Below, piece after piece: positions 37,065 through 64,000 of a stretch of DNA of 64,000 nt (positions are counted from its first letter, which is position 1; the number at the start of each line of letters is the position of its first letter). The translations under genes were made by a program, and so were the position numbers. This DNA comes from Sedimentimonas flavescens (lineage in GTDB: Bacteria > Pseudomonadota > Alphaproteobacteria > Rhodobacterales > Rhodobacteraceae), in NCBI RefSeq assembly GCF_019264375.1, contig NZ_JAHVAI010000008.1:95181-159180 (forward strand). Direction: 5' to 3'. The notes below the pieces were generated by a model that had not been told where the DNA came from, made no database searches, and saw only the letters and a list, made by a program, of their open reading frames with translations.

Positions 37065-38387
37065 TCAATCGCCGCGCTCCATGCGCGCACTCCAAGCTGC
37101 CTTGCCCATGCCCCTGCGATCGACCCGGCTCTCCATCGCCAGTGACGCTTGGACCACCATTTCCTTGCGCATCCGGGACGAGAACTGTCGTCCAACGCGT
37201 CCCGCCAGCAGCTCGAGTTCCCGGATCATTTCGGGCCCTTGATCCAGGCTCTCGACGTAGCGGCGGAAGTGCCGCAGTTCGCGTTCGATATATCTTTCGG
37301 CCTCCTCATAGGCCCCGTCCCGGTTCATGCGTGCCGCAGTGGTCACGACATGAGCGCTCCACGTCCGAGCAACGATCGCCGCGATCTCGATGTCGCGGGA
37401 CTGGGCCTTGTTGGTATCCCCACCCACGGCAGCGAGTCTGACCCGCACGGTGTCCGCTTCGAGCCTGGCGCGATCGTCAACAGCGCGTCCACTGGCGGTC
37501 AGCTCGAATGCAAGCTCGTCATTCTGCCGCGCCTTGGGACAGGTGATCTTGAAAACGGCAACCCGCTCGATGTCGTCTTGAACCGGCCCGAGAGGAACGA
37601 GCAAGCGACCGTCGCGGCTCTCGGATCCTGTTCTTCCCAGCACCTCGACCCGCACGCTCGCCGGTACAGTGAGTGCGATCTGTGCATCATCCACGACAGT
37701 CCCGAAGATGTCGTCCAGTTCGCCCAGAAGCACAGAGGAGATCTCGCTCGTCAGTTCCGCATCGTGGAGGCGTCCGCCACCGCTCTCGGCAATGCCCCTC
37801 AGCAGCTGCTCGTCGTAACCGTCGCCGATGCCAAGGCATGAGGTCAGGACGCCGCGCATCCGGAGCTCGCCTGCGTGCTCGCGAAGCTCTTCAGGGTCGA
37901 CGATGCCTTCGTTGGCATGACCGTCACTCAGGATGATGACACGTGGAGTCATCCGCGGGTCTTCTTCGGCGATCCTAGCGGCGCACTCGACACCGGCGAA
38001 CCATCCCCCCGACAGGAGCGTCATGCCCCGCGTCTGAAGACGCGAAATCTCCGACCGAATGCGGGCCGCGTTGTCGGTCGTCACCGCCACGCCATCGAGA
38101 TGAACGAGGACATCTGACGCAAAGGACACCACAGTAAGCCGATCCCGCTCCGTGAGGCGTTCTGCAAGGCCGAGGGCCGCTTCCTTGGCCGCCTCGAGCT
38201 TTCCGCCCCCCATCGAACCGCTGGCATCAATCACGAGGGCAATGTTGAGGGGTGCGCGTTCTGCCGGGCGACGGTCATCTTTTCGGTGAGCCTTCAGACG
38301 GGCGACGAGGTAGCGCACAGAGTCGCCGCCCTCCCAGAAGAGTTTGCGGTCAAAAACGGCGGCGGCGGTGAAATTCAAATCAGTCAT
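37065..38387 (-). CDS. VWA-domain protein
   Basis: This 440-residue protein has a von Willebrand A domain with an intact metal-ion-dependent adhesion motif (VIDASGSMGGGKL at about residues 53-65; TLLSGGW; ILSDGHANEG). There is no signal peptide or membrane anchor, so it is cytoplasmic. The start at 38387 is preferred (GGGAGAGCAAG precedes it) over an upstream in-frame codon. It overlaps the MerR-like gene by 8 bp, forming a two-gene unit. VWA proteins usually act with AAA ATPases or as scaffolds, but no such ATPase is next to it. The C-terminus (ESRVDRRGMGKAAWSARM) is basic. Confidence 0.8.
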   Translation of the reverse strand: MTDLNFTAAAVFDRKLFWEGGDSVRYLVARLKAHRKDDRRPAERAPLNIALVIDASGSMGGGKLEAAKEAALGLAERLTERDRLTVVSFASDVLVHLDGVAVTTDNAARIRSEISRLQTRGMTLLSGGWFAGVECAARIAEEDPRMTPRVIILSDGHANEGIVDPEELREHAGELRMRGVLTSCLGIGDGYDEQLLRGIAESGGGRLHDAELTSEISSVLLGELDDIFGTVVDDAQIALTVPASVRVEVLGRTGSESRDGRLLVPLGPVQDDIERVAVFKITCPKARQNDELAFELTASGRAVDDRARLEADTVRVRLAAVGGDTNKAQSRDIEIAAIVARTWSAHVVTTAARMNRDGAYEEAERYIERELRHFRRYVESLDQGPEMIRELELLAGRVGRQFSSRMRKEMVVQASLAMESRVDRRGMGKAAWSARMERGD

Positions 38388-39069
38388 TTCTTGCTCTCCC
38401 GGTAAGAATGGCGCGGAACTGGTCCGCGAGCTGTTCAAAAAGGACCCGCTCGCGAGCCTCGAGATTGCCGCGCACGGAAAGTTCGAGATCCGGCGTGACC
38501 GAGATCCGCGTCCAGACCGCCCCTCGCGAGCGCCTCGGCGCCGGCGCTTCGAGCACCTTCTCCAACTGCAAGATCAGCCGCTCGATGCTCGCCAGTTCCG
38601 CCTGGCGTTCGTCGGAGCGAGTTCCTCGATAGGACTCCGTCGACGGCTTGCTGAAGCGAGGTTCGAAAGACGGCCGCTCTGACGCGCTCGAAAGGGTCTT
38701 CTTCGCGAAAAAGTCCATCGATCGCTGTGGCTGTTCCTCGGTGGCGCTTCGTGTCTGGATCCGCCTGAGGTAATCGCGCGCCGACCCAGTGGAAGCCGTT
38801 GTAGGGCCTGCCTCGAGGGCCCACTCTCGGATTTGATCTTCCGCCGCCATCATGAAGCGACGCCCGATCTCAGAGAGCGATAGCCCGTGCAGATCTTTGA
38901 GCGCCCGAACGGCAAGCGCACGATATGCATTGCTGGCGGGGTATCGAGCGCCTCGCCCAGGCTTGAAGGGTGGAGCCAGAAGTCCTTCGCTGACCCAGGA
39001 CCTCAAGGTACGTGCCTCGACCCCGGTACGCTCGCTCAGTTCTTCGAGTGTGAGTTCATTATCAGACAT
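38380..39069 (-). CDS. MerR-like regulator paired with VWA protein
   Basis: This 229-residue protein has an N-terminal MerR-type winged helix (LTLEELSERTGVEARTLRSW at residues 6-25; GARYPASNAYRALAVRAL) and a long helical C-terminal half without Cys-rich metal sites. The helical part includes a coiled-coil-like stretch (ASIERLILQLEKVLEAP) ending in an extended segment. It overlaps the VWA start, so both are made from one message. It probably controls its own operon; the signal is unknown. Confidence 0.75.
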   Translation of the reverse strand: MSDNELTLEELSERTGVEARTLRSWVSEGLLAPPFKPGRGARYPASNAYRALAVRALKDLHGLSLSEIGRRFMMAAEDQIREWALEAGPTTASTGSARDYLRRIQTRSATEEQPQRSMDFFAKKTLSSASERPSFEPRFSKPSTESYRGTRSDERQAELASIERLILQLEKVLEAPAPRRSRGAVWTRISVTPDLELSVRGNLEARERVLFEQLADQFRAILTGRARND

Positions 39070-40808: not shown

Positions 40809-41521
40809 GCACTCATCGCCTTAGTCTTCCTGCTTTCCTGCCACAGAAGCCAGACCAGGGGCTTCATCTGGGCTTCGCCGAGATATGTCCGAATAGAGAA
40901 GATCGGCATGCGTCGCGCCTCGGGGTCCACTCTGAGGAACCAGCCAGGTTCTGGTTCTGCCTCGTCAAGGCTCCCAGCCCAGACACCATGTTCACACCCG
41001 AGATAGCAATCTCCACTCTCATGCAGAACACGGTCGCTGGCGATCCAGCGCAGCAACCGCGACGCTTCCTGGTCGACAACGTCCAGAAAGAACGACAGTC
41101 CACAACTGGATCGCTCGACCAAACGTTCAAGCGCGTGTGCGCAGAATGAAATCCGATCGATCGCGAACCGGATCAAGGTTCTGCCACTGGTCACGACGAG
41201 ACGCGTGTAGACGAGCTGAGGCTCGCTGAATAGATCGACGCCATCCGAACGCGTCAGTACGTTCCGCACGTTCCTCAGAACGAGAATGATGCTCTTGAGG
41301 TCCGGCGTCATTGCAGCGCGCACCACGCCCGCACGGTTGCGAAGACGTCTTGCAAGCCGAGTCCTTGCCTTCTCCCCTAGGGGGCGGCCCCTAAGCTCGG
41401 AGATGATTTCGGAGATTTCGGCCTGTTCCCGTTCCGCGCACTGCATTGCCTGCCGCGCGAGGCCGCGTTTCAGGGCTTTTCGGAGTGATGCACTGACGGC
41501 CGTGTCCTTGTGGCTGTTCAT
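40805..41521 (-). CDS. Hypothetical protein upstream of nuclease
   Basis: This 238-residue basic protein starts at the ATG at 41521, preceded by GAGGGACTCGAG; a GTG seven codons earlier is less likely. It is Arg/Leu-rich with a helical N-terminal half and an AHALERLVERS segment I associate with a family of uncharacterised island proteins. It overlaps the nuclease gene by 4 bp and is divergent from the WYL regulator. No function can be assigned. Confidence 0.6.
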   Translation of the reverse strand: MNSHKDTAVSASLRKALKRGLARQAMQCAEREQAEISEIISELRGRPLGEKARTRLARRLRNRAGVVRAAMTPDLKSIILVLRNVRNVLTRSDGVDLFSEPQLVYTRLVVTSGRTLIRFAIDRISFCAHALERLVERSSCGLSFFLDVVDQEASRLLRWIASDRVLHESGDCYLGCEHGVWAGSLDEAEPEPGWFLRVDPEARRMPIFSIRTYLGEAQMKPLVWLLWQESRKTKAMSA

Positions 41522-41574
41522 CTCGAGTCCCTCAGATTGCACTTGGTCGATAACTTCAATCTATGCGACCTAGA

Positions 41575-41589
41575 TGTCAGAAACTGTCA
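41575..41589. promoter_or_regulatory. Candidate WYL-regulator operator
   Basis: Two TGTCA direct repeats exactly 10 bp apart (41575-41579 and 41585-41589) lie 11 bp before the WYL start and 54 bp from the divergent gene. One-turn spacing on the same DNA face is typical of operators. WYL regulators such as BrxR commonly repress their own promoter. Confidence 0.4.
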
Positions 41590-41599
41590 TGGGGGCAGA

Positions 41600-42598
41600 A
41601 TGTCTTTCCAGAAAGCGTCCGACCTGCTTCGCCTTGCAGAACTTGCAGCGTCACGATTCCTCGGCGTCGGGCTCACCGACATCGAACAGATCTTCGAGGT
41701 GGATCGGCGCACGGCGCAACGCATGACGAAGGCACTCGAAGACATATTTCCCCATTGTGAGACCCGAACCGACGAGGAAAGGCGCAAGTATTGGAAAATC
41801 CCTGCCGCGGATCTGAAGCTCGTCGTCTCGCAGGGCATCCGGGACTCCGAGCTCGCGGCCATCGACATGTCAATCCGACGAGCGGAACGGGATGGCGCGG
41901 CTGACGAGGTTCGAAGCCTGCGAAGCCTGCGTGACCGTCTCCTTGCAGCAATGCCTGGACCTCACGCCAGACGCGCCGAGGCCGACGCGGAAGCCATGCT
42001 CGAGGCCCAGGGCTTTGCCTCGCGCCCGGGGCCAACGGTGCGATCGGATCTTACTTTGCTCCAGACCATCTCGGCAGCACTCAAGGGGCCATTTCAGCTC
42101 TCGATCCGCTACAAGGGTGCCAACGACATCGAGGGCAAGGAGCGATTGATCGAGCCACACGGCCTCCTCCTCGGAACGCGTCGCTACTTAGTCGCCCGGC
42201 CGGCGGGTGGCGACGGCAGTATGCGCCAGTTCAGACTTGACCGAATTTCGGAAGCAAGACTGCAGCAGAACTCCTTCGCACGAGATTCCGACTTCGACAT
42301 TGCAACACATGCGAGTCGGGCGTTTGGCTCCTATCACGCCGAGATCGAGTACGGAGAAGTCGTCTGGCGTTTTCGACCGGCGGCCGCAGCCGTCGCTCGG
42401 GAGTTTGTCTTCCATCCACTGCAGGAACTGACGGAAGACGAAGACGGTGCGCTGATCGTCCGTTTTTCCGCTTCCGGCCATCTGGAAATGGCCTGGCACC
42501 TTTATCAGTGGGGCGACAGCGTCGAGGTGCTGAAGCCGGACACGCTCCGGGAGATGGTGCAGCACCACCGCCGCGGCGATTTCCCATCATTCCCATGA
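41600..42598 (+). CDS. WYL-domain transcriptional regulator
   Basis: The 332-residue protein has an N-terminal helix-turn-helix (residues 1-70; LTDIEQIFEVDRRTAQRMTK), a helical linker, and a WYL-type ligand domain (SIRYKGANDIEGKERLIEPH; GLLLGTRRYLVARPAG) with a C-terminal extension. The ATG at 41600 is chosen because it begins the conserved domain; the longer frame reads through the divergent promoter. WYL proteins BrxR and CapW are known to control phage-defence operons through nucleotide-like ligands. It is 0.8 kb upstream of the Mza-like operon in the same direction, so control of that operon is plausible but unproven. Confidence 0.85.
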   Translation: MSFQKASDLLRLAELAASRFLGVGLTDIEQIFEVDRRTAQRMTKALEDIFPHCETRTDEERRKYWKIPAADLKLVVSQGIRDSELAAIDMSIRRAERDGAADEVRSLRSLRDRLLAAMPGPHARRAEADAEAMLEAQGFASRPGPTVRSDLTLLQTISAALKGPFQLSIRYKGANDIEGKERLIEPHGLLLGTRRYLVARPAGGDGSMRQFRLDRISEARLQQNSFARDSDFDIATHASRAFGSYHAEIEYGEVVWRFRPAAAAVAREFVFHPLQELTEDEDGALIVRFSASGHLEMAWHLYQWGDSVEVLKPDTLREMVQHHRRGDFPSFP

Positions 42599-43404
42599 TT
42601 GAGGATGCCGTCACTGCCTGGATGAGGCATCACGTGCCCACGGATCGGTGCAAAAGCTGAAGTGGACTGCTTAGTGAAGAGGCTTTTCGGTCGGGTGCAG
42701 CACAAGGCCCTTCTGGCTGCCGCCGAAGCTGTTCAACCAGGGACAGTCACAGACATTGGTGCGGTAGCTCTCGCTACAACCGCCATGTTCTGGCTATGAC
42801 CCCAGAACGATTCTTGACCCAAAGCCTCCCTTGCTCTTGGTTCAAACGACGAGGTTCATGGGCTTGCTACAGAGCATGTAGATGAAGACCAGCTTGGCAC
42901 GAGACCTGATGTCGCCTCCAGACCGCCCAGTGGGGCGGTTAGGATGCCTCCGGCATCATGTCTGATTTTGTCACCCAGCAATGCAAAGGTTCGAATCGCT
43001 GGCCACTGCTCCTAACGGAATGGGGAAACAGGAAGAGTCCGAATTGATATTGATCCAAGCCTCGGCTCGACTCACCGAGCCTTGTCGGAGGCAGTGTCTT
43101 CGAAATGACGATCGTGAGCCTTCACACTCCAGAAGGCCTAAATGGGAGCGGTTGACATTACGCGCCGAAGGTTCTTGGCAGTTTGGCCCAAATGGACAGA
43201 AGAAGAAAGAAATCATTACGGCAGGCGGAACAAGCAGACGAAAAATGAATAATTTTCACCTACTTGGTTGAAGTCTTCAGTGGAAGATGGAATCGATAAC
43301 CAAACAGACTCTTGGGAGCATTACTCGAAGTAGATGGTTACGTTTCGGCAGAGTTCCGCTCCGCGACCAATTCCACCAATCTCGATTGAATCTAGCTGCA
43401 GCCC
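42599..43404. other. Non-coding stretch before the sigma/Mza operon
   Basis: No gene can be supported. A GC-rich hairpin (ACCGCCC-AGT-GGGGCGGT type, about 42926-42943) lies inside it, and the composition turns A/T-rich from about 43150, consistent with the promoter region of the operon starting at 43405. No IS end or repeat is evident. Confidence 0.5.
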
Positions 43405-43830
43405 ATGTCCCTAATACTGACGACGATCTCTGCTTTTCCGCGCGGCAAGACCATAGGGGAACTCATGGTTCTCGTGGGCGCCGGATTCGCGCATGACAAG
43501 CGGGGCGCCGCTCTCGCCGAACTCGAAGAGCTGTCGCGCAGCGGCGCAATCGAGCGAGGCAGAGAAGCGTCTGGCGACGACGACCGCGACTGGCACTCGG
43601 AAGTTACACTGGAAGTGGGACCCCAACCCGAGATCTCTGAGACGCAGGCGAACGTCATCACACTCGACTATGGAATGCGTTGCGGCAAGGCCAAGATCAA
43701 GGTCCGGCGCGCGCTTCTCTACTACGCGCTGAGACGGCTCGGGCTCGATACCGACCCGTCTGCCAGAAGACCGCAGGATCAACAGATCGTGCTTCTCAAC
43801 AGCGAGGTCTTCCATGAAGTTCATGGATAG
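43405..43830 (+). CDS. Small winged-helix-like protein heading the operon
   Basis: This 141-residue protein has an N-terminal part (GKTIGELMVLVGAGFAHDKR, then AALAELEELSRSGAIERG) that looks like a winged helix, followed by an acidic linker and a basic C-terminal helix (KAKIKVRRALLYYALRRLGL). No enzyme motif is present. Its stop overlaps the start of the 1071-residue sigma fusion by 17 bp, so the two are translationally coupled. A role as DNA-binding partner or anti-sigma-like factor is an inference from position. Confidence 0.6.
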   Translation: MSLILTTISAFPRGKTIGELMVLVGAGFAHDKRGAALAELEELSRSGAIERGREASGDDDRDWHSEVTLEVGPQPEISETQANVITLDYGMRCGKAKIKVRRALLYYALRRLGLDTDPSARRPQDQQIVLLNSEVFHEVHG

Positions 43831-46800
43831 AATCTCCCGTCTTCTGGGGCGTGGCATTCAATTGGCGCCTGAACCGGAACGTCATTCTGCCGACTCCGCC
43901 CAGATCCCACCGATCCCGGATCGACGTTCGGAGAAACCCGCCGAACCACCCGGTTCCGCTCGCATTGTAGCTGTAGCGCAGAACGGTGCGGCTCCTCGTG
44001 AAGGAGGACCCGTCGAGCCAAATAGTCGGGAAACTCAGACTGATGCGCTTGAAGTTCGAGGACCGTTGACACCGTCTGAAGTGCGCATGATCCTAGCGGG
44101 AGCGATGGACAGCCTCGCGCAATTCGCTGCATCTCCTCGTCTTCATGCCACGGACGCAAAGGGGGACACACCGCTCCACATCGCAGCACGCCTTGGAAAT
44201 CTTGCGCTTTGTGATTTGTTCGTTGGTTCGGGTTCCGATCCCCGCGCCCTGAATAACGAACGGCAAACACCCGCCGACATCGCTCTCGAAGAGGGACACA
44301 GTCTCGCCGCGCAACTTCTGTACTCGCTTGTTGGCGAACCGCTACAGCCGGAACAGCTTCAAGGGGTTCGAGGGATTCCGAATGCCGGTATGACCGCAGC
44401 TACGCTCGAAGGCGCTTCCAGGGCGATATCTCCGACTGCAGGCGGATCGCCGCGAGATGATGCAGTTCTGAGGGCACGCGACGGGAGCTCGAACTCATCC
44501 TGGTCGGACGAGCGGGTCCAGCGTCTCAAGACACTCTGGGCCGAAGGCCAGAGCGCAAGTCAAATCGCGCGAGAGCTGGGTGGCGCAAGTCGCAATGCCG
44601 TCCTCAGCAAACTGTTTCGTCTCGGAATGCTGAACAAACCGCGCCCCGGCGTGGATTCACCAGAAGATCAACAGATACTCGTCGAATCCGACGACCTTTC
44701 GAACCCACCGGAAAAACCTGACGAATCCGCACCCCAGCCTTTCACTCATGCCGATGAACAGCTGTCGCAGAACATTCACGCCAAAACGCTGTGTCAATGG
44801 CACGCCGGTACGTTCTGGACTGGCGAGAGAATCGAGATTCTCAGACGGATGTGGTCGGACGGTCGAAGTGCCAGCGAGATCGCAAAGGCATTTGGAGGAG
44901 TTCTGACACCCGGTGCAGTGCTGTTTGAACTCCACAGACTTGGCATACATGAGCGCCCCAGAGGACAAACTGAACCGCTCGAGAATGCCCTCCCGGATTC
45001 CTTGCCAAAAGCAGAGTCGTCGCCCCCTGTCGAGCTTGCAAGAGATAGCGCGACATCAGGCAATCCGGTGCAGATGGCAGAACTCGAGGATCAATTGAGT
45101 TTCGAAGCCGAAGAAGAACCGGAAGTATTCTTCGACAAGACTGCAAACCAGACGGCCTCAGGAACATTCCTCGCGGTCCTTAACTCATCGCCGGCAGTCT
45201 TGGATAATGAGGACGCTGATTGGGAACTTGATCTTTCACCCGCACCGATCGCCGGAGAGGGCATCGGCTCCGGCGCTGCGGTGCCGACCGATCACGGTGG
45301 AGAAAGTGACTTCCTGCAGGTCCGGAACCGCGGCCGACAATCGTTCAAACGAGCAGTCGTCCAGACCAGCACACGGATGTCGATCGACCCGGACCTCTGC
45401 TTCAACTGGGCGGAAGAAATTCTGGCAAAGGGGCACTGCTCCCTCGACGATATCGACCGCCTCGTCGCCAGTTGCGAAGGGAATGGTGATCTCGAGGAAC
45501 TGAAAACCAACCTCCAGCGCAATCTTGAAGCAGCTGAATTCAACTTCAATCAGGTTCCGGGGCACGATGCCGTTCTCTGGGACTCTGCCTCGGACACTTC
45601 GTCCGACGACCTTGCTGACGCGATCGAGGCAGCACTTTCACGTCAGACGCGGCTGCCTGGCACACAGCGTTTCGTCATGGAGAAATCAGAAGAGCTGCAA
45701 CTGCTTGAGCCAATGATGCGGGCCAAGCAGGAACTCCAGCTGGGCATCCTTGCCTCCAAGACCGCTGTCGAAACGATCCTCGAAGTCATGGACAGAGTCC
45801 GCGACGGTTCGCGAGACCCCGGCTCGGTCTCCCTGAGAACCATAATTCTCTCGCGCCCGGGCCATGCAGAGACGTCCGAAGTATTGGCCGCCGCGGACGC
45901 CCTGAGGTCCTGGCACACTACCGGCCGGGTGATGGACGGCAAACGACGAAGAGAGGCACTTGCTGCGCTCGAGGCATTGGATCTCTCTCGGGCATTCCAA
46001 AAGGAGTTGGTCCGCAGACTGCAACAGTCCCCAGCGTGCCAAGCCGAGGCCAGTCAGCTGGAAGCCGAAATACTGATCTCCGAAGCTGCTACCGAGCACC
46101 TAATCCGCGAGCATCTGCCTTACGTCCGGCGGTTTGCCTCGCGGAACGTGGAGGAAGGCGAGGATCCAGAAGACGTGTTCCAGGTCGCGTTTATGGGTCT
46201 GCAGCGTTCCACAAGGCGATTTGATCCCGAGCGTGGCTATCGCTTCCTCATCTACGCCACTTACTGGATGCGACAGGCCATCACGCGATGGCGCGCTGAT
46301 GAAGGCGCGGCGATCCGCATCCCCGTGCATCGGAACGAGAAGATCACCAAGCTCGATCGCGCCCTCGAGAGGCTGGACGTTCGGGTCGGCGGTGCCGTCT
46401 CCGACCTCGAACTCGCCGAAGAGCTCGAATGGACAATCGACGAGGTCAGACAGTTCCGCAGCATCCCGCGTGAAGCCGAGTATCCCGAAAGCCTTGACGA
46501 CTGGGACGACCTGCTACCCGAGCCTGCGGGAGTGGATGTCTTCGACGAGGCAGAAACCGAAAGGATCGTGACAGACGCACTAGCTGAGCTGCCGGAACGT
46601 CAGGCTGATGTGATCCGGATGCGCTTTGGTATCGGGCGCGATTCTGACATGACCCTTGAGGAAATCGGTCAGATCTACGGCGTGACGCGCGAGCGCATTC
46701 GTCAGATCGAAGCGAAGGGCCTTGATCGCCTTTCCCACCCGGGCCGCAAGCGCCGGCTCCAGGAGTTGCTGGGCTACGACAGCAGCCGCGGTTCAAAGGG

Positions 46801-47029
46801 TTCATCTTCGACCGAGCGAGAGCAGCATAGCCCAGCGGAACCAGTAGAAAAGAGTCAAGTACTTACAACTTGGTCCGAGAGTCGAGTTGATCGCCTCAGA
46901 GAACTCTGGGCAGCCGGTATGAGCGCAAGTGAAATTGCGCAGGAACTGGGGGAAACCAGCCGGAATGCCGTAATTGGAAAGCTGAGCCGCCTCGGTCTGG
47001 CAGACTCTGACAGGGGGCAATGCCAATGA
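43814..47029 (+). CDS. Ankyrin-GcrA-like-sigma-70 fusion protein
   Basis: The 1071-residue protein has an unusual order of parts. Ankyrin repeats are at about 85-180 (KGDTPLHIAARLGNLALCDL). A GcrA-like helix-turn-helix is at 229-272 (SWSDERVQRLKTLWAEGQSA), with a second at 334-378 (FWTGERIEILRRMWSDGRSA). A sigma-70 core spans about 525-990, with region 2 near 765-832 (DPERGYRFLIYATYWMRQAI), region 3, and region 4 at 915-985 (MTLEEIGQIYGVTRERIRQI). A third GcrA-like domain lies at 1019-1064 (TTWSESRVDRLRELWAAGMS). GcrA normally binds methylated promoter DNA and sigma-70 region 2; here both are one chain. The gene overlaps its neighbours on both sides, so it is part of the Mza-like operon. Probable role: operon-specific sigma factor. 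Confidence 0.9.
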   Translation: MKFMDRISRLLGRGIQLAPEPERHSADSAQIPPIPDRRSEKPAEPPGSARIVAVAQNGAAPREGGPVEPNSRETQTDALEVRGPLTPSEVRMILAGAMDSLAQFAASPRLHATDAKGDTPLHIAARLGNLALCDLFVGSGSDPRALNNERQTPADIALEEGHSLAAQLLYSLVGEPLQPEQLQGVRGIPNAGMTAATLEGASRAISPTAGGSPRDDAVLRARDGSSNSSWSDERVQRLKTLWAEGQSASQIARELGGASRNAVLSKLFRLGMLNKPRPGVDSPEDQQILVESDDLSNPPEKPDESAPQPFTHADEQLSQNIHAKTLCQWHAGTFWTGERIEILRRMWSDGRSASEIAKAFGGVLTPGAVLFELHRLGIHERPRGQTEPLENALPDSLPKAESSPPVELARDSATSGNPVQMAELEDQLSFEAEEEPEVFFDKTANQTASGTFLAVLNSSPAVLDNEDADWELDLSPAPIAGEGIGSGAAVPTDHGGESDFLQVRNRGRQSFKRAVVQTSTRMSIDPDLCFNWAEEILAKGHCSLDDIDRLVASCEGNGDLEELKTNLQRNLEAAEFNFNQVPGHDAVLWDSASDTSSDDLADAIEAALSRQTRLPGTQRFVMEKSEELQLLEPMMRAKQELQLGILASKTAVETILEVMDRVRDGSRDPGSVSLRTIILSRPGHAETSEVLAAADALRSWHTTGRVMDGKRRREALAALEALDLSRAFQKELVRRLQQSPACQAEASQLEAEILISEAATEHLIREHLPYVRRFASRNVEEGEDPEDVFQVAFMGLQRSTRRFDPERGYRFLIYATYWMRQAITRWRADEGAAIRIPVHRNEKITKLDRALERLDVRVGGAVSDLELAEELEWTIDEVRQFRSIPREAEYPESLDDWDDLLPEPAGVDVFDEAETERIVTDALAELPERQADVIRMRFGIGRDSDMTLEEIGQIYGVTRERIRQIEAKGLDRLSHPGRKRRLQELLGYDSSRGSKGSSSTEREQHSPAEPVEKSQVLTTWSESRVDRLRELWAAGMSASEIAQELGETSRNAVIGKLSRLGLADSDRGQCQ

Positions 47030-48528
47030 CCGTGAGAAATGCTCCCCCGCATGCCGGTTCGATGCTCGAATCTTTGCGTGGGCTCGGCTACGCGGCTCCC
47101 ACCGCACTTGCCGATCTGGTTGACAATTCCATCGCTGCAAATGCACGCGACGTCGCCGTTCATCTTGAGTGGGCCGGTACAGAGAGCTGGGTAAGAATCG
47201 TCGATGATGGCGACGGCATGGACGACGCGGCTCTGGAGGCCGGCATGCGCCTTGGCGCTCGCGATCCGAGGGCTGAACGCGCCGCCACCGACCTCGGGCG
47301 CTTCGGGCTGGGCCTAAAGACGGCCAGCTTCTCTCAGGCTCGTCGCCTCACCGTCGCCAGTCGGAAGGAAGGTGGACCGGTCGTCTGCCTGCGCTGGGAC
47401 CTCGATCTCATCGGTCAGGAACCCGGGGCCGATTGGCCGCTCTTCGAGGGACCGTCGCCGGGATCAGAGCATTTGCTTGCGCCGTTGGACCAGATGGCCC
47501 ACGGCACCGTCGTACTCTGGGAGAAACTGGACCGTATCGTGACGGATGGCTTCGCGCCCACCGACATGATCGAGCTCGCGGATCGCGTGGAGGCGCATCT
47601 TGCGATGACCTTCCATCGCCTCATCGATGGCCAACTGCCCATGCTGCGCCTCTCGCTCAATGGCCGAGGATTGAAGCCTTGGGATCCGTACCTCCTCGGT
47701 CATCCCGGCAAGGCGCTCGAAAGCCCCGAGTATCGGATCCTCCACACCACCGGTGTGACCGTGCAATGCCATGTCCTTCCGCATCGCGACATGCTCAAGC
47801 CTGCCGAGCAGGAAGCGGCGGCGGGGCCCGGAGGATGGACGCAGCAGGAGGGCTTCTACGTCTACCGCAACAAGCGTCTCCTTCTCGCTGGGGGTTGGCT
47901 TGGCCTCGGCGATGGCGGCAAGCCATGGCCGCGCGATGAAGCTCACAGGCTCGCTCGTATCCGGCTCGACATACCGAACAGCGCGGATGCCGATTGGAAG
48001 ATCAATGTCCTGAAATCGACGGCCAGCCCCCCGGTGCGCTTGCGATCCCAGCTTCATCGTCTCGCAACAGAAACACGCGACACGGCGCGGCGGGTCTTCG
48101 CCCACCGAGGACACGTGACCCCGGCCTCAGGCACGCGCCCGAACGCAGTCGCCGAAGCCTGGCAAGTGCGGCGTTCGGCACAAGGAACGTCTTACCGGAT
48201 CGCTCGTGACCATGATCTTCTCGCCTCGATCCTCGATCGCGCCGGCCCACTCAAGCCCGACATCCTCGCTCTTCTGAGGCTGATCGAAGAGACGGTGCCC
48301 GTGCAGCGTATCTGGCTGGATACGGCGGAAGACAAGGAGACGCCGAGAACTGGTTTCACCGGAGCGGCCGAGAACGAGGTGATGGAGACCCTGTCCTCGA
48401 TGTTTGAAGCACTAGTGAAGTTCCGCGGGCTCAGCCCGACCGAGGCGCGCGAGCGGCTCGGTCGCACGCCCCCATTCGACCGGCACCTCGACCTGGTTGC
48501 AGCCCTTGAAGCGAAAGACACGCAATGA
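47020..48528 (+). CDS. MORC/MutL-type GHKL ATPase (Mza-like)
   Basis: This 502-residue ATPase has the GHKL nucleotide site: N-box DLVDNSIAANA (about residues 31-41), G1 IVDDGDGMDD (about 61-70), and G2 lid GRFGLGLKTASFS (about 91-103). Lacking the MutL endonuclease part, it matches the MORC-like ATPases described in restriction-type operons together with Z1, DUF4420 and AIPR. ATP-driven dimer closing on DNA is the expected action. Starts at 47020 or 47026 are both possible after AGGGGGC. It overlaps the sigma fusion by 10 bp and the Z1 gene by 4 bp. Confidence 0.88.
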   Translation: MPMTVRNAPPHAGSMLESLRGLGYAAPTALADLVDNSIAANARDVAVHLEWAGTESWVRIVDDGDGMDDAALEAGMRLGARDPRAERAATDLGRFGLGLKTASFSQARRLTVASRKEGGPVVCLRWDLDLIGQEPGADWPLFEGPSPGSEHLLAPLDQMAHGTVVLWEKLDRIVTDGFAPTDMIELADRVEAHLAMTFHRLIDGQLPMLRLSLNGRGLKPWDPYLLGHPGKALESPEYRILHTTGVTVQCHVLPHRDMLKPAEQEAAAGPGGWTQQEGFYVYRNKRLLLAGGWLGLGDGGKPWPRDEAHRLARIRLDIPNSADADWKINVLKSTASPPVRLRSQLHRLATETRDTARRVFAHRGHVTPASGTRPNAVAEAWQVRRSAQGTSYRIARDHDLLASILDRAGPLKPDILALLRLIEETVPVQRIWLDTAEDKETPRTGFTGAAENEVMETLSSMFEALVKFRGLSPTEARERLGRTPPFDRHLDLVAALEAKDTQ

Positions 48529-51392
48529 CGATTTCAAACCAGAAGGCCTTCGATTCAATTCTTTCCATGGCCCAGAACATGCTCCGCCTTGCTGCGGAAC
48601 GCGCTCAGAGCCCTGTCACACCGGAAATGATCGAGAAGGAGCTGACCAAGCTGTCGATCATGATGGAGGATGATTTCGCCCTTGTTGATCGGGACGCGCT
48701 GGTTGACGAACTGATCCGCCGTTCAAGCCGCACGGTGGGCGAGAACGCCACCCTGTCGAGCGGTGAGGACCATGTCGCCTGGCTTGATGCAGAAAGGAAG
48801 AAGGGCTGGACCTATTGGCAGCGTTACTCGGAGTACATGGAAGCGCGCATCCCCTGGACGGCCCTCGATGCTCTCGACGTCGCCACTGACGAAGTCCTTT
48901 CGCAGCTCGAGGACCCGACCCGGGAAGGTGCATGGGATCGTCGCGGCCTGGTCGTGGGCCACGTCCAGTCGGGGAAGACAGGCAACTATACCGGACTGAT
49001 CTGCAAGGCTGCCGACGCCGGTTACAAGATCATCATCGTGCTTGCCGGCCTGCACAACAACCTGAGAGCACAGACCCAGATCCGCCTTGACGAGGGGTTT
49101 CTCGGTTTTGCCACCATCGCGGATGCTGACGAGCTCCCAACAGTGGGGGTCGGACTGATCGACAAGGACATGTCGGTCCGTCCCAATGCTGCAACGAATC
49201 GGAGCGACAAGGGCGACTTCAACACGGCCGTTGCCGCGAAGATGAACGTCAGCCCGGAACAACGACCGTGGTTGTTCGTCGTCAAGAAGAACAAGACGGT
49301 GCTGGAGCGCCTGCTGCACTGGATCCGCAACCGTGTGGCCAATCACGTCGACCCCGTAACAGGTCGCAAACTCGTCACCAACCTGCCTCTCCTAGTGATC
49401 GACGACGAGTCCGATCACGGATCTGTCGACACCGGTGAAGATGTCGTGGACGAGTTCGGCAACCCGGATCTCGAGCACGAGCCCAAGACGATCAACAGGT
49501 TGATCCGGTCGATCCTCCACCATTTCTCGCGGAAGGCCTATGTCGGTTACACGGCGACACCCTTTGCGAACATCTTCATTCATGACCGCGGGGAGACTCA
49601 GGAGCACGGACCGGACCTCTTCCCCGCAGCCTTCATCACCAGCCTTGCGGCACCATCGAATTATGTCGGACCGGGCCGTGTCTTCGGATCAGCTTCCAGC
49701 ACGCCGGAAGACCTGCCTCTGGTGCGCCGGCTTTCGGACGATGAGTTCCAGCCGTGGATGCCGCCAAGACACAAGAACGGCTACCGGCCACGATGGCAGG
49801 GGGAGGACCGTGTGCCGAACTCGCTCGCAGAAGCGATCCGCTCCTTCGTCTATGCCTGTGCCGTGAGGAAGCTGCGCGGACAGGGCAGCAAACACTCCTC
49901 GATGCTCATCCACGTTACCCGCTTCACCTCGGTACAGAACGCTGTGGTCAACCAGGTCGCAGAGTACGTGCGGGATCTGAAGGGCCGCTACACTCGCGGC
50001 ATCGAGCTTGCGGCCCTCGAGGCGTCCATGCGCAAGGAATATGAAAATACCTTCCGACCAGGCATGAAGGGAATCCGCTCTGCACTCGTTGAAGGTGAAA
50101 CGTTGGAGGATTTCTCTTGGGAGGACATTCGTACCGTCCTCCCCGACATCCTTTCCGACATTCGCGTGCGCGAGATCAACGGCACGGCCAAGGATGCACT
50201 CGACTATGCCGAGAACGATGGCACCGGCCTCAAGGTGATTGCCATCGGCGGCGACAAGTTGGCGCGTGGTCTGACGCTCGAAGGTCTCTGTACGAGCTAC
50301 TTCCTTCGGACCGCGCGCATGTACGACACGCTCATGCAAATGGGGCGCTGGTTCGGCTACCGCGACGGCTACCTCGATGTCTGCCGCCTCTACACATCAC
50401 AGGAAATGGTGGAGTGGTTCGGCCATATAGCCGACGCCGCCGAAGAGTTGCGCCAGGAGTTCGACAACATGGTCGCGGCCGGCGCCACGCCAAAACAGTT
50501 CGGTCTGCGGGTGAAATCGCATTCGGTGCTGACGGTCACCTCTCGGGCCAAGATGCGAAACGCTCGCGCAATGAAGCTGACCTATTCGGGCGACCTTCTG
50601 CAGACGATCGTGTTTCCCAACCGCAAGGACGACATCACGGCGAACTTCAATGCTACAGATCGGTTCATCAACGCACTCGGTCCATCGACGGATCTGAACG
50701 ATCAGCATTTCGTTCCACAAGGTCAGAAGTGGAACGGTCACCTCTGGCGAGACGTACCGGCTCTGAGCGTCATCTCGTTCCTTCGGGATTACAGGACCCA
50801 CCCCGCCAGCTTCCGGATCATGAGTCCGCTGATCGCGGACTTCATCGAGGAGATGAACAAGGATCTTGAGTTGACGAACTGGACGATCGCACTGATCGGC
50901 AAGGACAGCGGCCCGGATGACAAGCACCGCTCAGCAGGTGGTTGTTCGGTCAACATGCTCCAGCGCAAGCGCACGACTGAACATGCGGATCGATACTCGA
51001 TCAAGACCCTGATCTCGCCTCGCGATCAGGCCATCGATCTGACCGAGGCGGAATGGAAGGCAGCGCTCGATCTCAGCCAGAAGACCTGGCGCAACGACAC
51101 GGATCGAAACGAAGGCAAGGAGCCGCCCTCCGAACCGAGAGGCCCACAGATCCGTCACGTACTCGGGGAAGGCATCGCCGAAGCGGGCATTCCGGCTCGC
51201 CGGGAACGCGGCCTGCTCATGCTCTATCTGCTCGATCCCGAGGGTGCGGGTGTCGATGAACTGAGGAGTGCCGATCCCGTCGTCGCCTGGGCCATCAGTT
51301 TTCCGTCAAGCACTTCCGAGAGAAGGGTCTCCAACTCGAGGTACATCGCCAACAGCGTTCTATGGGGAGGCCTCAATGACTGGGTGGACTGA
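48525..51392 (+). CDS. Z1-domain superfamily II helicase/ATPase
   Basis: This 955-residue protein has Walker A GHVQSGKTGNYTGLI (about residues 145-159), Walker B-like LLVIDDESDHGSVD (about 290-303), YVGYTATPFANI (about 338-349), and distal motifs GGDKLARGLTLEGL and MQMGRWFGYRDGYLDVCRLY (about 604-623). These define the Z1 domain (PF10593), an SF2-type ATPase found with MORC, DUF4420 and AIPR proteins in predicted restriction systems. It is expected to translocate on or remodel DNA. It overlaps both neighbours, by 4 bp and 17 bp. Confidence 0.9.
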   Translation: MTISNQKAFDSILSMAQNMLRLAAERAQSPVTPEMIEKELTKLSIMMEDDFALVDRDALVDELIRRSSRTVGENATLSSGEDHVAWLDAERKKGWTYWQRYSEYMEARIPWTALDALDVATDEVLSQLEDPTREGAWDRRGLVVGHVQSGKTGNYTGLICKAADAGYKIIIVLAGLHNNLRAQTQIRLDEGFLGFATIADADELPTVGVGLIDKDMSVRPNAATNRSDKGDFNTAVAAKMNVSPEQRPWLFVVKKNKTVLERLLHWIRNRVANHVDPVTGRKLVTNLPLLVIDDESDHGSVDTGEDVVDEFGNPDLEHEPKTINRLIRSILHHFSRKAYVGYTATPFANIFIHDRGETQEHGPDLFPAAFITSLAAPSNYVGPGRVFGSASSTPEDLPLVRRLSDDEFQPWMPPRHKNGYRPRWQGEDRVPNSLAEAIRSFVYACAVRKLRGQGSKHSSMLIHVTRFTSVQNAVVNQVAEYVRDLKGRYTRGIELAALEASMRKEYENTFRPGMKGIRSALVEGETLEDFSWEDIRTVLPDILSDIRVREINGTAKDALDYAENDGTGLKVIAIGGDKLARGLTLEGLCTSYFLRTARMYDTLMQMGRWFGYRDGYLDVCRLYTSQEMVEWFGHIADAAEELRQEFDNMVAAGATPKQFGLRVKSHSVLTVTSRAKMRNARAMKLTYSGDLLQTIVFPNRKDDITANFNATDRFINALGPSTDLNDQHFVPQGQKWNGHLWRDVPALSVISFLRDYRTHPASFRIMSPLIADFIEEMNKDLELTNWTIALIGKDSGPDDKHRSAGGCSVNMLQRKRTTEHADRYSIKTLISPRDQAIDLTEAEWKAALDLSQKTWRNDTDRNEGKEPPSEPRGPQIRHVLGEGIAEAGIPARRERGLLMLYLLDPEGAGVDELRSADPVVAWAISFPSSTSERRVSNSRYIANSVLWGGLNDWVD

Positions 51393-52380
51393 AGATGGGA
51401 TTGCGCGCGCCTGGCGAGCGCTCGCACGGCAGGAAGCGGCGGAAGACTGGCGATTTGTGCATCTCACTGACGTGGGCGCCGTCTCGGTTGAGGCGGGGTG
51501 TCACTTCCCTCTCGGACGGGAGGCGTTGATCGTCTCCTTTCCGGGATCGTGGCCGGTGAACCCGGCAAAGCTTCCTGAAGGCAAGGGCTTCGACGTATCC
51601 TGCATCGAGGGTCAGTCCGCATTCGCAGGCAAGACGGCGATTGCTCTCGTCAGACGGCCGGAGGGCTCCCCCGACATCTTCGCCATCATGGTCGTTGATG
51701 TCTTGAGAACTCTGGAGGCAGCAGCCAACAGCGCGGGCCGCGATGTCATGGAGACCTTCCTCGAACGGGTAAGGGAGTGGCAGGCGTTCATGGCTCGAAC
51801 CCACCGCCCTCTTTCGTCCGATGCACAGATCGGCCTGCTCGGCGAACTCTGGATGCTCAGGCTGCTCACGGACACCTCCCTCGGAGCCGGTGCTCTCGAC
51901 TGCTGGCAGGGACCGTTGCGGGCTGCACAGGATTTCCACGTTCGGGGTGGCGCGATAGAGGTGAAGAGCACGGTCCGGACCGGGAGCTTCCTTGCGCGGA
52001 TCAACAGCATCGAGCAGCTGGATGGCGACAGAGCTCCCATCTTCCTTTGCGCCTTCCGCTTCGAGGAAAATACGGACGGGTTCTCGCTTGTCGACCTCGT
52101 GTCTGAACTCCGCGAGAGGTTTGGACTGGCCGGAGTTCAGCGCGGCTTCGAGGCATTGCTCATGGTGATGGGATACCTCGAAGAGCATGCACTGCTCTAC
52201 GGCCGAACGCTGGCATTGAAGGATGCAAGGACATTCCGTTCGGAAGGTGACATGCCGCGCCTCATGCGTGCCTCCTTGCCAGCCGCCATCCGTTCAGCCG
52301 CCTATGTACTCGACCTCGATGCCTTGGAAGTCCCTTCAATTGGGATTCCGGAGCTGATCAACGAATTTGGACTGGAATGA
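51376..52380 (+). CDS. DUF4420 PD-(D/E)XK nuclease (Mza-like)
   Basis: This 334-residue protein has the family core: LLGELWMLRLL (about 156-166), AQDFHVRGGAIEVKSTVRTG (about 184-203) with the Asp and E-x-K of the PD-(D/E)XK fold, then a beta-rich C-terminal region. The ATG at 51376 follows TGGGGAGG and overlaps the Z1 stop by 17 bp; a longer frame is rejected because it lies inside Z1. It is the likely DNA-cutting subunit of the operon. The metal site is intact by eye. Confidence 0.87.
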   Translation: MTGWTEDGIARAWRALARQEAAEDWRFVHLTDVGAVSVEAGCHFPLGREALIVSFPGSWPVNPAKLPEGKGFDVSCIEGQSAFAGKTAIALVRRPEGSPDIFAIMVVDVLRTLEAAANSAGRDVMETFLERVREWQAFMARTHRPLSSDAQIGLLGELWMLRLLTDTSLGAGALDCWQGPLRAAQDFHVRGGAIEVKSTVRTGSFLARINSIEQLDGDRAPIFLCAFRFEENTDGFSLVDLVSELRERFGLAGVQRGFEALLMVMGYLEEHALLYGRTLALKDARTFRSEGDMPRLMRASLPAAIRSAAYVLDLDALEVPSIGIPELINEFGLE

Positions 52381-52381
52381 C

Positions 52382-54190
52382 ATGAGCCTCGAAGAGTTTC
52401 ACCGCAACTTTCGATCCGACCTGCAGACCATCATCGCCGAGCGTGTGGAGGCCGGCGAAGGCCCATTTCCTTCGGATGAGCTCGTCTTTGCGGAAATGGT
52501 CATGGAGCATGTCGCAGAAACAGGGATTTGCGAGGCACCAACCGTTTGCCACTGGAGCGGCAAGGTCGGAAACGCCAAACTCCGCATTACGGGCTATGCG
52601 CTCAGTTCTGATGAAACGTCTCTCGACCTCTTCGTGACCCACTATTTCGGGACTGACGAGCTGAACGATCTCAAGGACTCGGATGCGACAGCAACCGCAA
52701 GCGAGGGCGTTCGCTTTCTCTTTCGTGCGGCCAGCGGCAACCTCGACGCAAGAATTGATCCGACCCATCCGGTCAGGGACCTTGTGGCAACCATTCGCTC
52801 TCGCTGGGGAGAAATCGACCGACTTCGTGTTTTCGTAATTACGGACGGCAAAACAAAGACCAAACGGTTCTCGAACAAGGAGGTTCACCAGAAGATGGTA
52901 GCTGTCGAGGCCATGGATATGGAGAGGCTGTTCCGCCACACCGAGGGCAAGCCTCGCGACGAACTCTCCGTCAGTCTTGTTCAGTCGATCGGTCGCCCGC
53001 TGCCTTGTGTCCATGTCCCCGATCCCGATGCCGACTATGAGTACGCGCTGACGGCAATTCCGGGACAGCTCATTCGCGACCTGTACCTGCGTTTCGGGAC
53101 GCGATTGCTGGAAGCAAATGTTCGCACTTTCTTGGGGGCCAGCCGAAAGAAATCCGTGAACAACGGCATCGTCGAGACGCTCCGAAAGGAGCCGGAGCAC
53201 TTCCTCGCCTTCAACAATGGCCTCGTACTTGTCTGCGACGAAGCGGCCTTCGAGCGGACTGAGGACGGGGACCTAGGCCTGTCTTTCCTGAAGGGGCTGC
53301 AGATTGTGAATGGCGGCCAGACGACCTCGACCATCTACTTCTCATCCCGCGACGATCGCACCATCGATCTCAGCCATGTAATGGTCCCTGCGAAGATCAT
53401 CATCCTCAAGGGGTCGCAGGACGAAGCGCGCGAGAGACTTATCAGCAACGTTTCCCGCTATGCGAACAGTCAGAACGCGGTGAAAATGTCCGACCTGTCG
53501 GCGAACCGCCCGTTCCATCGAGAGCTTGAGAAACTCGCGAACGAAACGTGGTGCCCCGACGGTGCAACGCGATGGTTCTACGAGCGCGCAGCCGGCGCCT
53601 ATAACGTCATGCTGCTCAGAGAAGGCACCACACCAGCAAAAAGGCGAAATCTGAAGGAGATGATCCCGCCGAAGCGCAAGCTGACAAAGAACGACATCGC
53701 CAAGTATCATGAAGCGTGGCGCTGCAAGCCGAACCAGGTCGCAATGGCTGGTGAAAAGAACTTCGCGGCCTTCATGGCTGCTCTCGATGACGATCCGAAC
53801 ATTGTGCCCAACCCACTCGATGCCCGCTGGTATCGAGCGATGATCGCCAAGGTTGTTCTTTTCAAGGCAATCGAGAGCATGATCAAGACCAAGGAAGCAA
53901 AGGAGGTGTTTCGCCAAGGATGGGTCAACATCGCAACCTACGTCGTTTCAGTGGTCGCTGACAGACTTGGCGACAGGCTCGACCTCGAACAGATCTGGAT
54001 GCGGCAAGGGATTTCAGGTGGTCTGCGCGACCTGCTCTGGGATTGGGCCGTTGTCGTAAATTCAGAGTTCAATAGGATCGCTCCGGGTCAACAGTTCTCT
54101 GAGGTAGCAAAACGAGCGGATACGTGGGCAAAGGTGAAGAATGCTGATCTTAAATTGGATCGCAGCGGCATCCCGGAGCTTGGGCGATGA
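52382..54190 (+). CDS. AIPR protein (abortive-infection phage-resistance family)
   Basis: This 602-residue protein carries the AIPR landmarks: RTFLGASRKKSVNNGIVETL (about residues 247-266), FLAFNNGLVLVCDEA, and LQIVNGGQTTSTIYFS (about 306-321). AIPR (PF10592) is named for proteins linked to abortive infection and is a standard partner of Z1 and DUF4420. The ATG 1 bp after the DUF4420 stop is chosen; an in-frame TTG at 52367 is the alternative. It ends the operon. Its biochemical action is unknown, perhaps recognition or nucleic-acid binding. Confidence 0.87.
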   Translation: MSLEEFHRNFRSDLQTIIAERVEAGEGPFPSDELVFAEMVMEHVAETGICEAPTVCHWSGKVGNAKLRITGYALSSDETSLDLFVTHYFGTDELNDLKDSDATATASEGVRFLFRAASGNLDARIDPTHPVRDLVATIRSRWGEIDRLRVFVITDGKTKTKRFSNKEVHQKMVAVEAMDMERLFRHTEGKPRDELSVSLVQSIGRPLPCVHVPDPDADYEYALTAIPGQLIRDLYLRFGTRLLEANVRTFLGASRKKSVNNGIVETLRKEPEHFLAFNNGLVLVCDEAAFERTEDGDLGLSFLKGLQIVNGGQTTSTIYFSSRDDRTIDLSHVMVPAKIIILKGSQDEARERLISNVSRYANSQNAVKMSDLSANRPFHRELEKLANETWCPDGATRWFYERAAGAYNVMLLREGTTPAKRRNLKEMIPPKRKLTKNDIAKYHEAWRCKPNQVAMAGEKNFAAFMAALDDDPNIVPNPLDARWYRAMIAKVVLFKAIESMIKTKEAKEVFRQGWVNIATYVVSVVADRLGDRLDLEQIWMRQGISGGLRDLLWDWAVVVNSEFNRIAPGQQFSEVAKRADTWAKVKNADLKLDRSGIPELGR

Positions 54191-54547: not shown

Positions 54548-56089
54548 TCAAGCAGTAAAACCCAATGCCGAAGCTAGTAGGGACGCCAGCTTTTTCGCGA
54601 GGAACGGCGGCACGGCGTTCCCAACCTGAACGTACTGCTGGGTCCGATTGCCCATGAACAGGTAGTCGTCAGGGAATGTCTGCAGGCGTGCAGCTTCACG
54701 CACCGTCAAGCTGCGGCACTGCGCGGGATCGGGATGGATGAAGTAATGACCATCCTTCGAGATGTGGCTCGTGACCGTGGTCGATGCCTCGTCCGCCAGC
54801 TGAACCCGGAAACGGTCATTGAAGACACCGCTGTGCCAGTTGCGGTGATCGGGGCTGAGCACCAGAGGAAAATCGGCGGCCTTCGGGCTGTAGCCACGGA
54901 CAGTCCCGAACACGGCAGCAAACAGGTAGCGGCCCAGATCCGACGCCATGTGCCCGCGCGTCTCGTGCTGGGCGATCGCGCGGAGTTCTGCTCGCTCGAT
55001 CCACTGGAGCAACTCATCGTTCGAACTGCCATAGCCATCCGGCAAACGTGTCGCCGCGCGAATGGTATGCGTATTGTCCTTTACTCGCTTGGAAACGGAC
55101 AGGAACGCTTCGCGAAGTGCACGGTTCTCCTGGCCCTTGGAGATCCCGGCCAGCAGCTTCGCGGCGTCGAGGACTTCTGCTCGCCAGGCAGCCGCGTCGT
55201 CAAGCCCGCGGCTGATGCCGCTTCGCAAGGCGGGCATAGTTTCGATGACATCGCGGACGGTCCGCTCAATCCCGGATACAGCGATCTCTCCATCGGCAGC
55301 GCGACCTGCGAGATCCGAACGGATGCCGACGATGATCACCCTGTGGCGACGCTGCGGGACTCCAAACTCCTCGGCGCGCACGATGAAATCCGCGGGATGT
55401 GACGCCTCCTGCAGGCTGGCCTTGCCATCCTCGACCCGGACGGCACGAAGTTCGTAGTGATGGGCGTGACCTGTGCCGAGAGAGGACAGGTCCTCCATCA
55501 GCATCTCGAAGACAAGTCGGCTCTCGACTGTGGACGAAAGCATGCCCTTGACGTTTTCCATAACGAATGCGGCCGGGCGAAGCTTGTCGAGAACCCGGAT
55601 GTATTCGCGAAAGAGATAGTGCCGCGCATCCTCTTCCGGGACATAGCCGACCTTGCCCTTCGACCGCGCCCGACCCACGAGGGAGTAGGCCTGACACGGC
55701 GGGCCGCCGATCAGGATCGTGTCGTCGCACCCCGACTTCAGTTTCTCGATGGCGGCATCGATCGCTGTTGCTGCGGCCTCGGTTCCGAGCTCTAGGCCGC
55801 GGGCTTCCTCGACGGCCAACTGCCAAGCAGACGCATCGACTTCCGACCAGTCCGGTTCAGAAGTTTCCCCCGCATGGAAATCGATGAACTGTTTCGGCAA
55901 GCTGCCATGACGCGACCGGCACGCGCGCAGAAACGCGCGCAGTGTCAGCGTCCGGTGCGCCGATGCCTCCTTCTCGACTGAGATGCCGATCCGGAACGGC
56001 GCGTGGCCATCCTCTACAAGGGATGCAAACCCCTCACCGAGTCCGCCGGGGCCGGCGAACAAATCAACGATGCCGAAAGTCGAAGGCAA
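54548..56089 (-). CDS. dcm: C5-cytosine DNA methyltransferase (Dcm-like)
   Basis: The 513-residue methyltransferase has all main motifs: I DLFAGPGGLGEGF (about residues 9-21), IV GGPPCQAYSL (about 127-136) with the catalytic Cys, VI FVMENVKGM, VIII PQRRHRVIIVG, and X VQVGNAVPPFLAKKL near the end. It transfers a methyl group from S-adenosylmethionine to C5 of cytosine at an unknown target. It is divergent from vsr with only 67 bp between, and convergent with the Mza-like operon. It may mark host DNA so that the operon spares it. Confidence 0.93.
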   Translation of the reverse strand: MPSTFGIVDLFAGPGGLGEGFASLVEDGHAPFRIGISVEKEASAHRTLTLRAFLRACRSRHGSLPKQFIDFHAGETSEPDWSEVDASAWQLAVEEARGLELGTEAAATAIDAAIEKLKSGCDDTILIGGPPCQAYSLVGRARSKGKVGYVPEEDARHYLFREYIRVLDKLRPAAFVMENVKGMLSSTVESRLVFEMLMEDLSSLGTGHAHHYELRAVRVEDGKASLQEASHPADFIVRAEEFGVPQRRHRVIIVGIRSDLAGRAADGEIAVSGIERTVRDVIETMPALRSGISRGLDDAAAWRAEVLDAAKLLAGISKGQENRALREAFLSVSKRVKDNTHTIRAATRLPDGYGSSNDELLQWIERAELRAIAQHETRGHMASDLGRYLFAAVFGTVRGYSPKAADFPLVLSPDHRNWHSGVFNDRFRVQLADEASTTVTSHISKDGHYFIHPDPAQCRSLTVREAARLQTFPDDYLFMGNRTQQYVQVGNAVPPFLAKKLASLLASALGFTA

Positions 56090-59195: not shown

Positions 59196-59361
59196 ACAAC
59201 TGCTCACCATACCCGAAGCCGCCGAGCTTCTGCGGGTTTCGATCAAGTCAATCCGCCGCTGGATCGAGAGTGGAGAACTGTCCGCCGCAAAGCTCGGCAA
59301 CCAGTGGCGCATCCGCCCCCAGGACCTCGATCGCTTCGTTCGCGACCGGTTGGAGCGTTGA
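59167..59361 (+). CDS. Excisionase-family (HTH_17) DNA-binding protein
   Basis: This 64-residue protein consists of a MerR/excisionase-type helix-turn-helix (LLTIPEAAELLRVSIKSIRR, then WIESGELSAAKLGNQWRIRP). Such small factors direct recombination toward excision or switch integration modules. It precedes the three recombinase genes by 167 bp, with a small gap containing no other supported gene. Confidence 0.8.
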   Translation: MRSRPATTPEQLLTIPEAAELLRVSIKSIRRWIESGELSAAKLGNQWRIRPQDLDRFVRDRLER

Positions 59362-59527
59362 CCATGGAAGGCCAAGAATGTCCATCCACGACAATGCCTT
59401 ATCGGAACGTCGGGACAACGGACCCGAGCAATCGGAGCCGGATTGTTGTGCTACGTTGTCCCGAAGAAGACGCCCTGACCACCCGAGTTTGCCCGTGTCC
59501 ATCGTTGACCAATGTGGAGCCTGCCCG

Positions 59528-62320: not shown

Positions 62321-62324
<4 letters not shown>
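61230..62324 (+). CDS. Tyrosine recombinase B
   Basis: The 364-residue recombinase has the full set: Arg in ICPVRLGNFSAIEI, Lys in GPETKTGHPFSAP, HxxR in INPHLFRDCAAT, and His/Tyr in LLGHIDPRAAESHYIQANQ. It is more standard in size than recombinase A. It overlaps A by 8 bp and the serine recombinase by 4 bp, so all three are expressed from one message. Paired tyrosine recombinases may act as a heteromer. Confidence 0.9.

Positions 62325-64000
<1,676 letters not shown>

Follow-up and report, generated by a model that had tools for sequence, protein, structure and literature searches.

GcrA-type DNA-binding domains as an exchangeable addition to the sigma factor of a predicted MZA anti-phage operon

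The mzaA frame, its domains and its operon

The window analysed here, a stretch of 64,000 nucleotides from Sedimentimonas flavescens (NZ_JAHVAI010000008.1, positions 95,181 to 159,180), holds at 43814-47029 on its forward strand a single open frame with an ATG start that encodes a protein of 1071 aa. Profile matches and gene order identify this protein as MzaA, the sigma factor of an MZA (mzaABCDE) operon that is predicted to act against phages. Its layout is ankyrin, GcrA, GcrA, sigma70, GcrA, the three GcrA parts being helix-turn-helix domains, and we propose, with a probability of roughly 0.6, that it is a sigma factor carrying its own DNA anchors. The frame and its parts, all on the + strand, are as follows.

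43814..47029, +: mzaA, ankyrin-GcrA-GcrA-sigma70-GcrA protein of 1071 aa (frame and profile matches)
44135..44323, +: ankyrin repeats, residues 108-170 (Pfam Ank_2 above cut-off; AlphaFold helices)
44495..44632, +: GcrA DNA-binding domain 1 (D1), residues 228-273 (recognition segment SRNAVLSK)
44813..44947, +: GcrA-type domain 2 (D2), residues 334-378 (recognition segment altered to TPGAVLFE)
45080..45670, +: MzaA-specific region, residues 423-619, kept in MzaA proteins with and without GcrA domains; low model confidence over its initial part
45674..46084, +: helical region resembling sigma-70 region 1.2 and the non-conserved region, residues 621-757
46100..46303, +: sigma-70 region 2, residues 763-830 (Pfam PF04542, 57.6 bits)
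46337..46474, +: sigma-70 region 3, weak, residues 842-887 (Pfam PF04539, 20.5 bits, below the 25.3 cut-off)
46577..46735, +: sigma-70 region 4, residues 922-974 (Pfam PF04545, 74.2 bits)
46865..47002, +: GcrA DNA-binding domain 3 (D3), residues 1018-1063 (recognition segment SRNAVIGK)

GcrA, a regulator that has been studied in depth, is a reader of DNA methylation that works through sigma-70. An earlier reading of the sequence alone had placed GcrA homology at three sites of this frame, and the profile searches bear it out: Pfam GcrA (PF07750) matches three stretches with 156 bits in total against a cut-off of 26.9, and a GcrA-only profile, for which 30 true GcrA sequences were taken from related genomes, scores D1, D2 and D3 at 72.9, 53.1 and 61.3 bits, the best among 500 shuffles of MzaA reaching 5.4. 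Among solved structures, the sole strong matches of D1 are to Caulobacter GcrA (5yiu, 5yiv, 5yiw, 5z7i, 7ye1 and 7ye2), and D1 agrees with the GcrA domain of the host at 30 of 44 positions. The ankyrin repeats likewise hold up, with an Ank_2 score of 29.6 bits against a cut-off of 27.3 and a stretch modelled by AlphaFold as helices at residues 87-183 (block pLDDT 62-89).

What MzaA shares with GcrA is the N-terminal helix-turn-helix. The best Pfam stretch spans profile positions 2-49 of 155, and in a search of the whole genome the three MzaA sites span positions 2-62, 2-51 and 3-78. According to one review, GcrA begins with a domain that recognises methylated promoter DNA (residues 1-45), which a linker joins to a sigma-interacting domain at residues 108-173 (PMC7403470). 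The C-terminal sigma-interacting domain was not found in MzaA, where the matches end by profile position 78 of 155. Judged by these alignments, MzaA has borrowed from GcrA solely the N-terminal DNA-binding domain and not the one that binds sigma and gives GcrA its role as a sigma-70 partner. The proposal that GcrA and sigma-70 are joined here in cis thus stands as to the fusion itself and its position beside the Mza genes, but only the DNA-binding half of GcrA takes part; the domain is fused to a sigma factor rather than docking on one, and relatives of MzaA hold up to four copies of it per protein, unlike GcrA.

The mzaA stop (47029) overlaps the mzaB start (47020), and MzaB-E follow with overlaps.

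47020..48528, +: mzaB, GHKL (MORC-like) ATPase (PADLOC MzaB, 1.4e-171; NCBIfam MzaB, 653.8 bits)
51268..52380, +: mzaD, PD-(D/E)XK protein (DUF4420), whose frame as called begins at a GTG within mzaC
52367..54190, +: mzaE, AIPR protein (profile matches)

The best PADLOC and NCBIfam matches of the genes that adjoin mzaA at 47020-54190 are to mzaB, C, D and E, all four below the NCBIfam equivalog cut-offs, and the top NCBIfam match of the sigma factor is MzaA (NF041931), at 243.2 bits far under the equivalog cut-off of 800. An MzaA from another class (locus L104) matches the same model nearly end to end, yet scores 473 bits, likewise below 800. This canonical protein has ankyrin repeats and sigma regions 2, 3 and 4; its matches to region 1.2 and the non-essential region miss the cut-off, narrowly or by a wide margin, and no GcrA match is listed for it. 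Ankyrin plus sigma therefore looks ordinary for MzaA, and the GcrA domains look like an addition. As in the MZA systems modelled by NF041931 and PADLOC, a sigma-70 factor heads an mzaA-E operon, N-terminal ankyrin being common to the window and L104, but the window protein adds three GcrA DNA-binding domains and has 1071 aa against 726 model positions. The mzaABCDE system was originally reported by Gao et al. (2020). A further paper treats the system as validated and calls its mzaA a sigma factor (PMC9523054).

Coupling of such proteins to Mza partners, as had been anticipated, is borne out: MzaB adjoins mzaA in 22 of the 22 named loci that have DNA beyond mzaA (26 named loci in all). Among nineteen further stretches around mzaB-like genes, several of which coincide with named loci, 11 show an upstream sigma match and 8 show none; two of the 11 hold GcrA domains, both already among the named loci.

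Distribution and constraint of the GcrA-type domains

To place the GcrA domains among relatives we used 120 proteins, made up of the query and the best listed of 406 matches after removal of P0003 (the window's own protein with a later start), a set that is biased towards the query and includes fragments, so that GcrA domains are perhaps undercounted. At least one GcrA domain is present in 57 of the 120, with 0-4 copies before the sigma part and 0-1 after it (P0005 has no region-4 motif, and its C-terminal state is not assignable), and the same two insertion zones recur in many homologues. The sigma frame is complete in 23 named loci, five of which bear such domains (L019, L024, L025, L031 and L032), each of the five accompanied by MzaB-E. 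The 23 exclude L033, in which the frame stops inside the core, and L034 and L036, in which the gene runs off the contig (in L034 with a C-terminal extension); L006 is the same locus as L031 and was counted once.

Two comparisons of loci illustrate how these domains come and go. The operons of L031 (Paracoccus sanguinis) and L035 (Rhodobacter calidifons) are 97.8% and 96.7% identical over 3346 and 1598 bp, and differ by a net insert of 241 bp at the end of mzaA that carries the GcrA domain, present in L031 and absent from L035. L024 (Pseudotabrizicola sediminis; protein P0021) has three tandem GcrA domains that are identical as protein, copy 2 equalling copy 1 at 210 of 210 bases and copy 3 at 186 of 210. 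A quick tree built from the core and sigma part calls for 21 or more changes of the C-terminal domain and 6 or more of the N-terminal one; 43 of its 116 inner branches are unresolved, and recombination would give the same picture. From this distribution we conclude that the GcrA domains are an accessory, exchangeable cassette, present or absent at two sites in an MzaA whose remainder is conserved. The open literature, subscription papers being mostly outside the search, yielded no account of a GcrA-sigma fusion. A class-wide GcrA search of 241 genomes found, among the matches listed, three full GcrA domains within open frames of 626-653 aa in other genomes, and further GcrA fusions are therefore possible.

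The recognition segment reads TRNAVIGK in most true GcrA rows, against SRNAVLSK in D1, SRNAVIGK in D3 and TPGAVLFE in D2; on this alignment the recognition-helix signature of D2 is lost. Among near homologues, 27 of the 43 N-terminal domains have an intact signature and 15 are of the TPGAVL type; of the 49 C-terminal domains, 35 have the signature intact. Between the window and L019, dN/dS is 0.13 for D1 and 0.14 for D3 (jointly 0.14, bootstrap 0.06-0.27), 0.19 for sigma, 0.70 (0.45-1.08) for the linkers and 0.75 (0.25-2.75) for D2, the difference between D1 plus D3 and the linkers having p = 2e-4. D3 alone gives 0.12-0.17 against L006, L032 and L025. These ratios indicate that D1 and D3 are under purifying selection, with a constraint like that of sigma, in the pair compared.

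Neither plasmids nor phages could be named as carriers: no PLSDB match was obtained at E 1e-80, and the best 20 of 25 phage records match the sigma part only. One IMG/VR contig holds an MzaA relative. At the end of the window (59270-64000) lie a tyrosine integrase, a serine recombinase and a tRNA-Met, likely the edge of a mobile defence island. On the other side of the operon, a protein of 2492 residues (28571-36049, - strand) combines a DEAD-box helicase with a UvrD helicase and a cold-shock domain below cut-off; with a von Willebrand A protein nearby (37065-38438, - strand), it possibly forms another defence module.

Promoters, methylation and control of the operon

The sigma part of MzaA remains close to host RpoD in the segments that read promoters, matching it at 18 of 26 positions in regions 2.3-2.4 and 23 of 32 in region 4.2; the VTRERIRQIEAK segment of host RpoD, by alignment, is kept in MzaA region 4. 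From these matches one would predict that MzaA reads promoters of the TTG-N3/17-bp/TA type. The same closeness to RpoD speaks against an explanation that we consider improbable, in which MzaA is mainly the targeting subunit of a putative MzaBCDE ATPase-helicase-nuclease complex and not a transcription factor. Its sigma regions would then find promoters, its exchangeable GcrA-type domains would add site or modification specificity, and the MzaB-E machinery would be delivered to active invader promoters; by analogy with restriction enzymes, DNA-binding domains might be swapped in and out as specificity cassettes.

The region upstream of mzaA in relatives conforms to the expected promoter type. 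A near-complete CapW-type gene precedes 19 of the 26 related named mza loci, the best solved-structure match of this regulator being CapW (E 1.2e-61), and the 19 distinct loci share a block composed of TTG-N3, a 17-bp spacer, TA-N3-T, two inverted repeats and the regulator start, some bases of which vary (the alignment omits the 7 of 26 named loci without a near-complete CapW gene). Published CapW sites take the form of palindromes that span the -10 (PMC9122588), and those of BrxR fall in the interval from the -10 to the gene (PMC9122601); as these occupy like positions, the inverted repeats of the relatives, just after the -10 as in BrxR sites, are likely operators of their CapW-type WYL repressor. 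The window departs from this pattern, its match to capW being confined to the C-terminal part.

43405..43830, +: frame with a capW stub at its end (43555-43827 aligns only with residues 226-316 in the CapW reading from a relative, at 85% identity)

Similarity of the DNA to capW starts at about 43549; a single match upstream of this point, 40 bp at E 0.76, is too weak to carry meaning. The end of the stub overlaps the mzaA start (43814) by 17 bp, an overlap kept despite the truncation, and the 3′ end of capW may survive because it holds the mzaA ribosome-binding site. Searches upstream of the window mzaA found neither the promoter nor the first inverted repeat of the relatives, and no consensus sigma-70 promoter in 42500-43850. 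With only the capW end and neither of these elements, the window operon is likely under different control. L040 and L043 likewise match only the end of capW, and in L027 the contig end is near. A separate second WYL-WCX regulator is encoded upstream of the mza operon at 41510-42598 (+ strand).

The sequence-only reading had suggested that MzaA gates the adjacent Mza genes by methylation or modification of DNA. In its explicit form, the GcrA domains would read CcrM-methylated GANTC at the mza promoter, and methylation state would switch these genes on or off. The host genome encodes a complete GcrA of its own and a protein with a RAMA domain, as CcrM has, and the GcrA DNA-binding domain is reported to recognise methylated promoter DNA (PMC7403470). 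The conserved promoter footprint contains GANTC in only 1 of 20 rows, at L024:1838-1875, the locus with three identical GcrA repeats; there CGATTCT lies at the -10 and fits the published GcrA motif YGAKTCK (PMC7987155). Within 331 bp of the promoter, GANTC occurs in 2 of 5 GcrA-bearing and 6 of 12 GcrA-less loci of known state, a count that omits L033 and L034 (gene end broken or off contig), with which the GcrA-less loci become 8 of 14. Furthermore, the promoter of L031, which has the cassette, agrees with that of L035, which lacks it, at 325 of 331 bp. Since GANTC is no commoner with the cassette, and near-identical promoters serve MzaA with and without this patchily distributed addition, a switch acting on the adjacent Mza genes is not supported and appears unlikely to us. 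Methylation-dependent action may take place at promoters other than those of mza.

Upstream of the window mzaA, GANTC is found 8 times in 42600-43830 against a local shuffle mean of 7.5, 7 times in 42600-43404 against 4.3 (reached by 35 of 300 shuffles) and 5 times in 43000-43404 against 2.7 (reached by 29 of 300). The whole window contains 92 GANTC sites where dinucleotide shuffles give about 371, a strong avoidance of the CcrM-type site. A methyltransferase gene lies beyond the operon, and homologues of it occur in 15 of the 26 related named loci.

54548..56089, -: C5-cytosine DNA methyltransferase, convergent with the mza operon

Near it, at 56695-57648 (+ strand), is an HNH protein resembling methyl-directed type IV nucleases.

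A proposed self-anchored sigma factor

With its copies of the GcrA DNA-binding domain, MzaA likely arrives at promoters with a built-in DNA anchor. We propose that it would join host core RNA polymerase to form a holoenzyme reading -35/-10 elements of the TTG-N3-N17-TA type, and that D1 and D3 would hold this holoenzyme at nearby sites recognised by GcrA-type helices, covalent linkage taking the place of the docking by which GcrA reaches sigma-70. Before infection, the operon of relatives is likely held silent by a CapW-type repressor; MzaA would afterwards raise transcription of the mza operon and of further promoters picked by its GcrA domains. In the window, where capW is broken, either another control would act or the operon would be deregulated.

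Several observations weigh against this proposal. Sigma-70 region 3 falls short of its Pfam cut-off, so that of the sigma-70 regions 2 to 4 originally assigned to the frame, regions 2 and 4 stand at that level and region 3 does not. The 2.2 segment departs from RpoD (QEGNIGLM to QVAFMGLQ), and binding of core RNA polymerase is for this reason not assured. Structure models of MzaA are weak overall (pTM 0.40 and 0.30) and were used for local domains only. GcrA domains are absent from 63 of the 120 proteins and 18 of the 23 named loci, in part the general absence that the sequence-only reading held would count against it; as over half of the MzaA proteins in these sets do without them, they are not needed for basic MZA function. 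D2 is indistinguishable from the linkers in dN/dS, with no measurable constraint, 14 of 49 C-terminal copies are without the signature, and the dN/dS estimates, apart from those for D3 alone, come from a single comparison, that of the window with L019 (Pararhodobacter sp.).

Patchy distribution, an unconstrained D2 and copies without a signature, together with the protein-identical tandem copies of L024, are also what would be expected if the GcrA domains were passenger cassettes without current function, spread by recombination or tandem duplication. Purifying selection on D1 and D3, the use of the same two insertion zones across many homologues and retention of the recognition segment in most copies argue the other way, and we regard cassettes of this kind as distinctly improbable.

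In these proteins the GcrA reader, minus its sigma-docking part, has become part of a defence sigma factor, where it occupies two positions and varies in copy number. Near-identical operon pairs with and without the cassette make it possible to ask directly what a sigma factor gains from a DNA-binding domain, and for what purpose an anti-phage system has a sigma factor in the first place.

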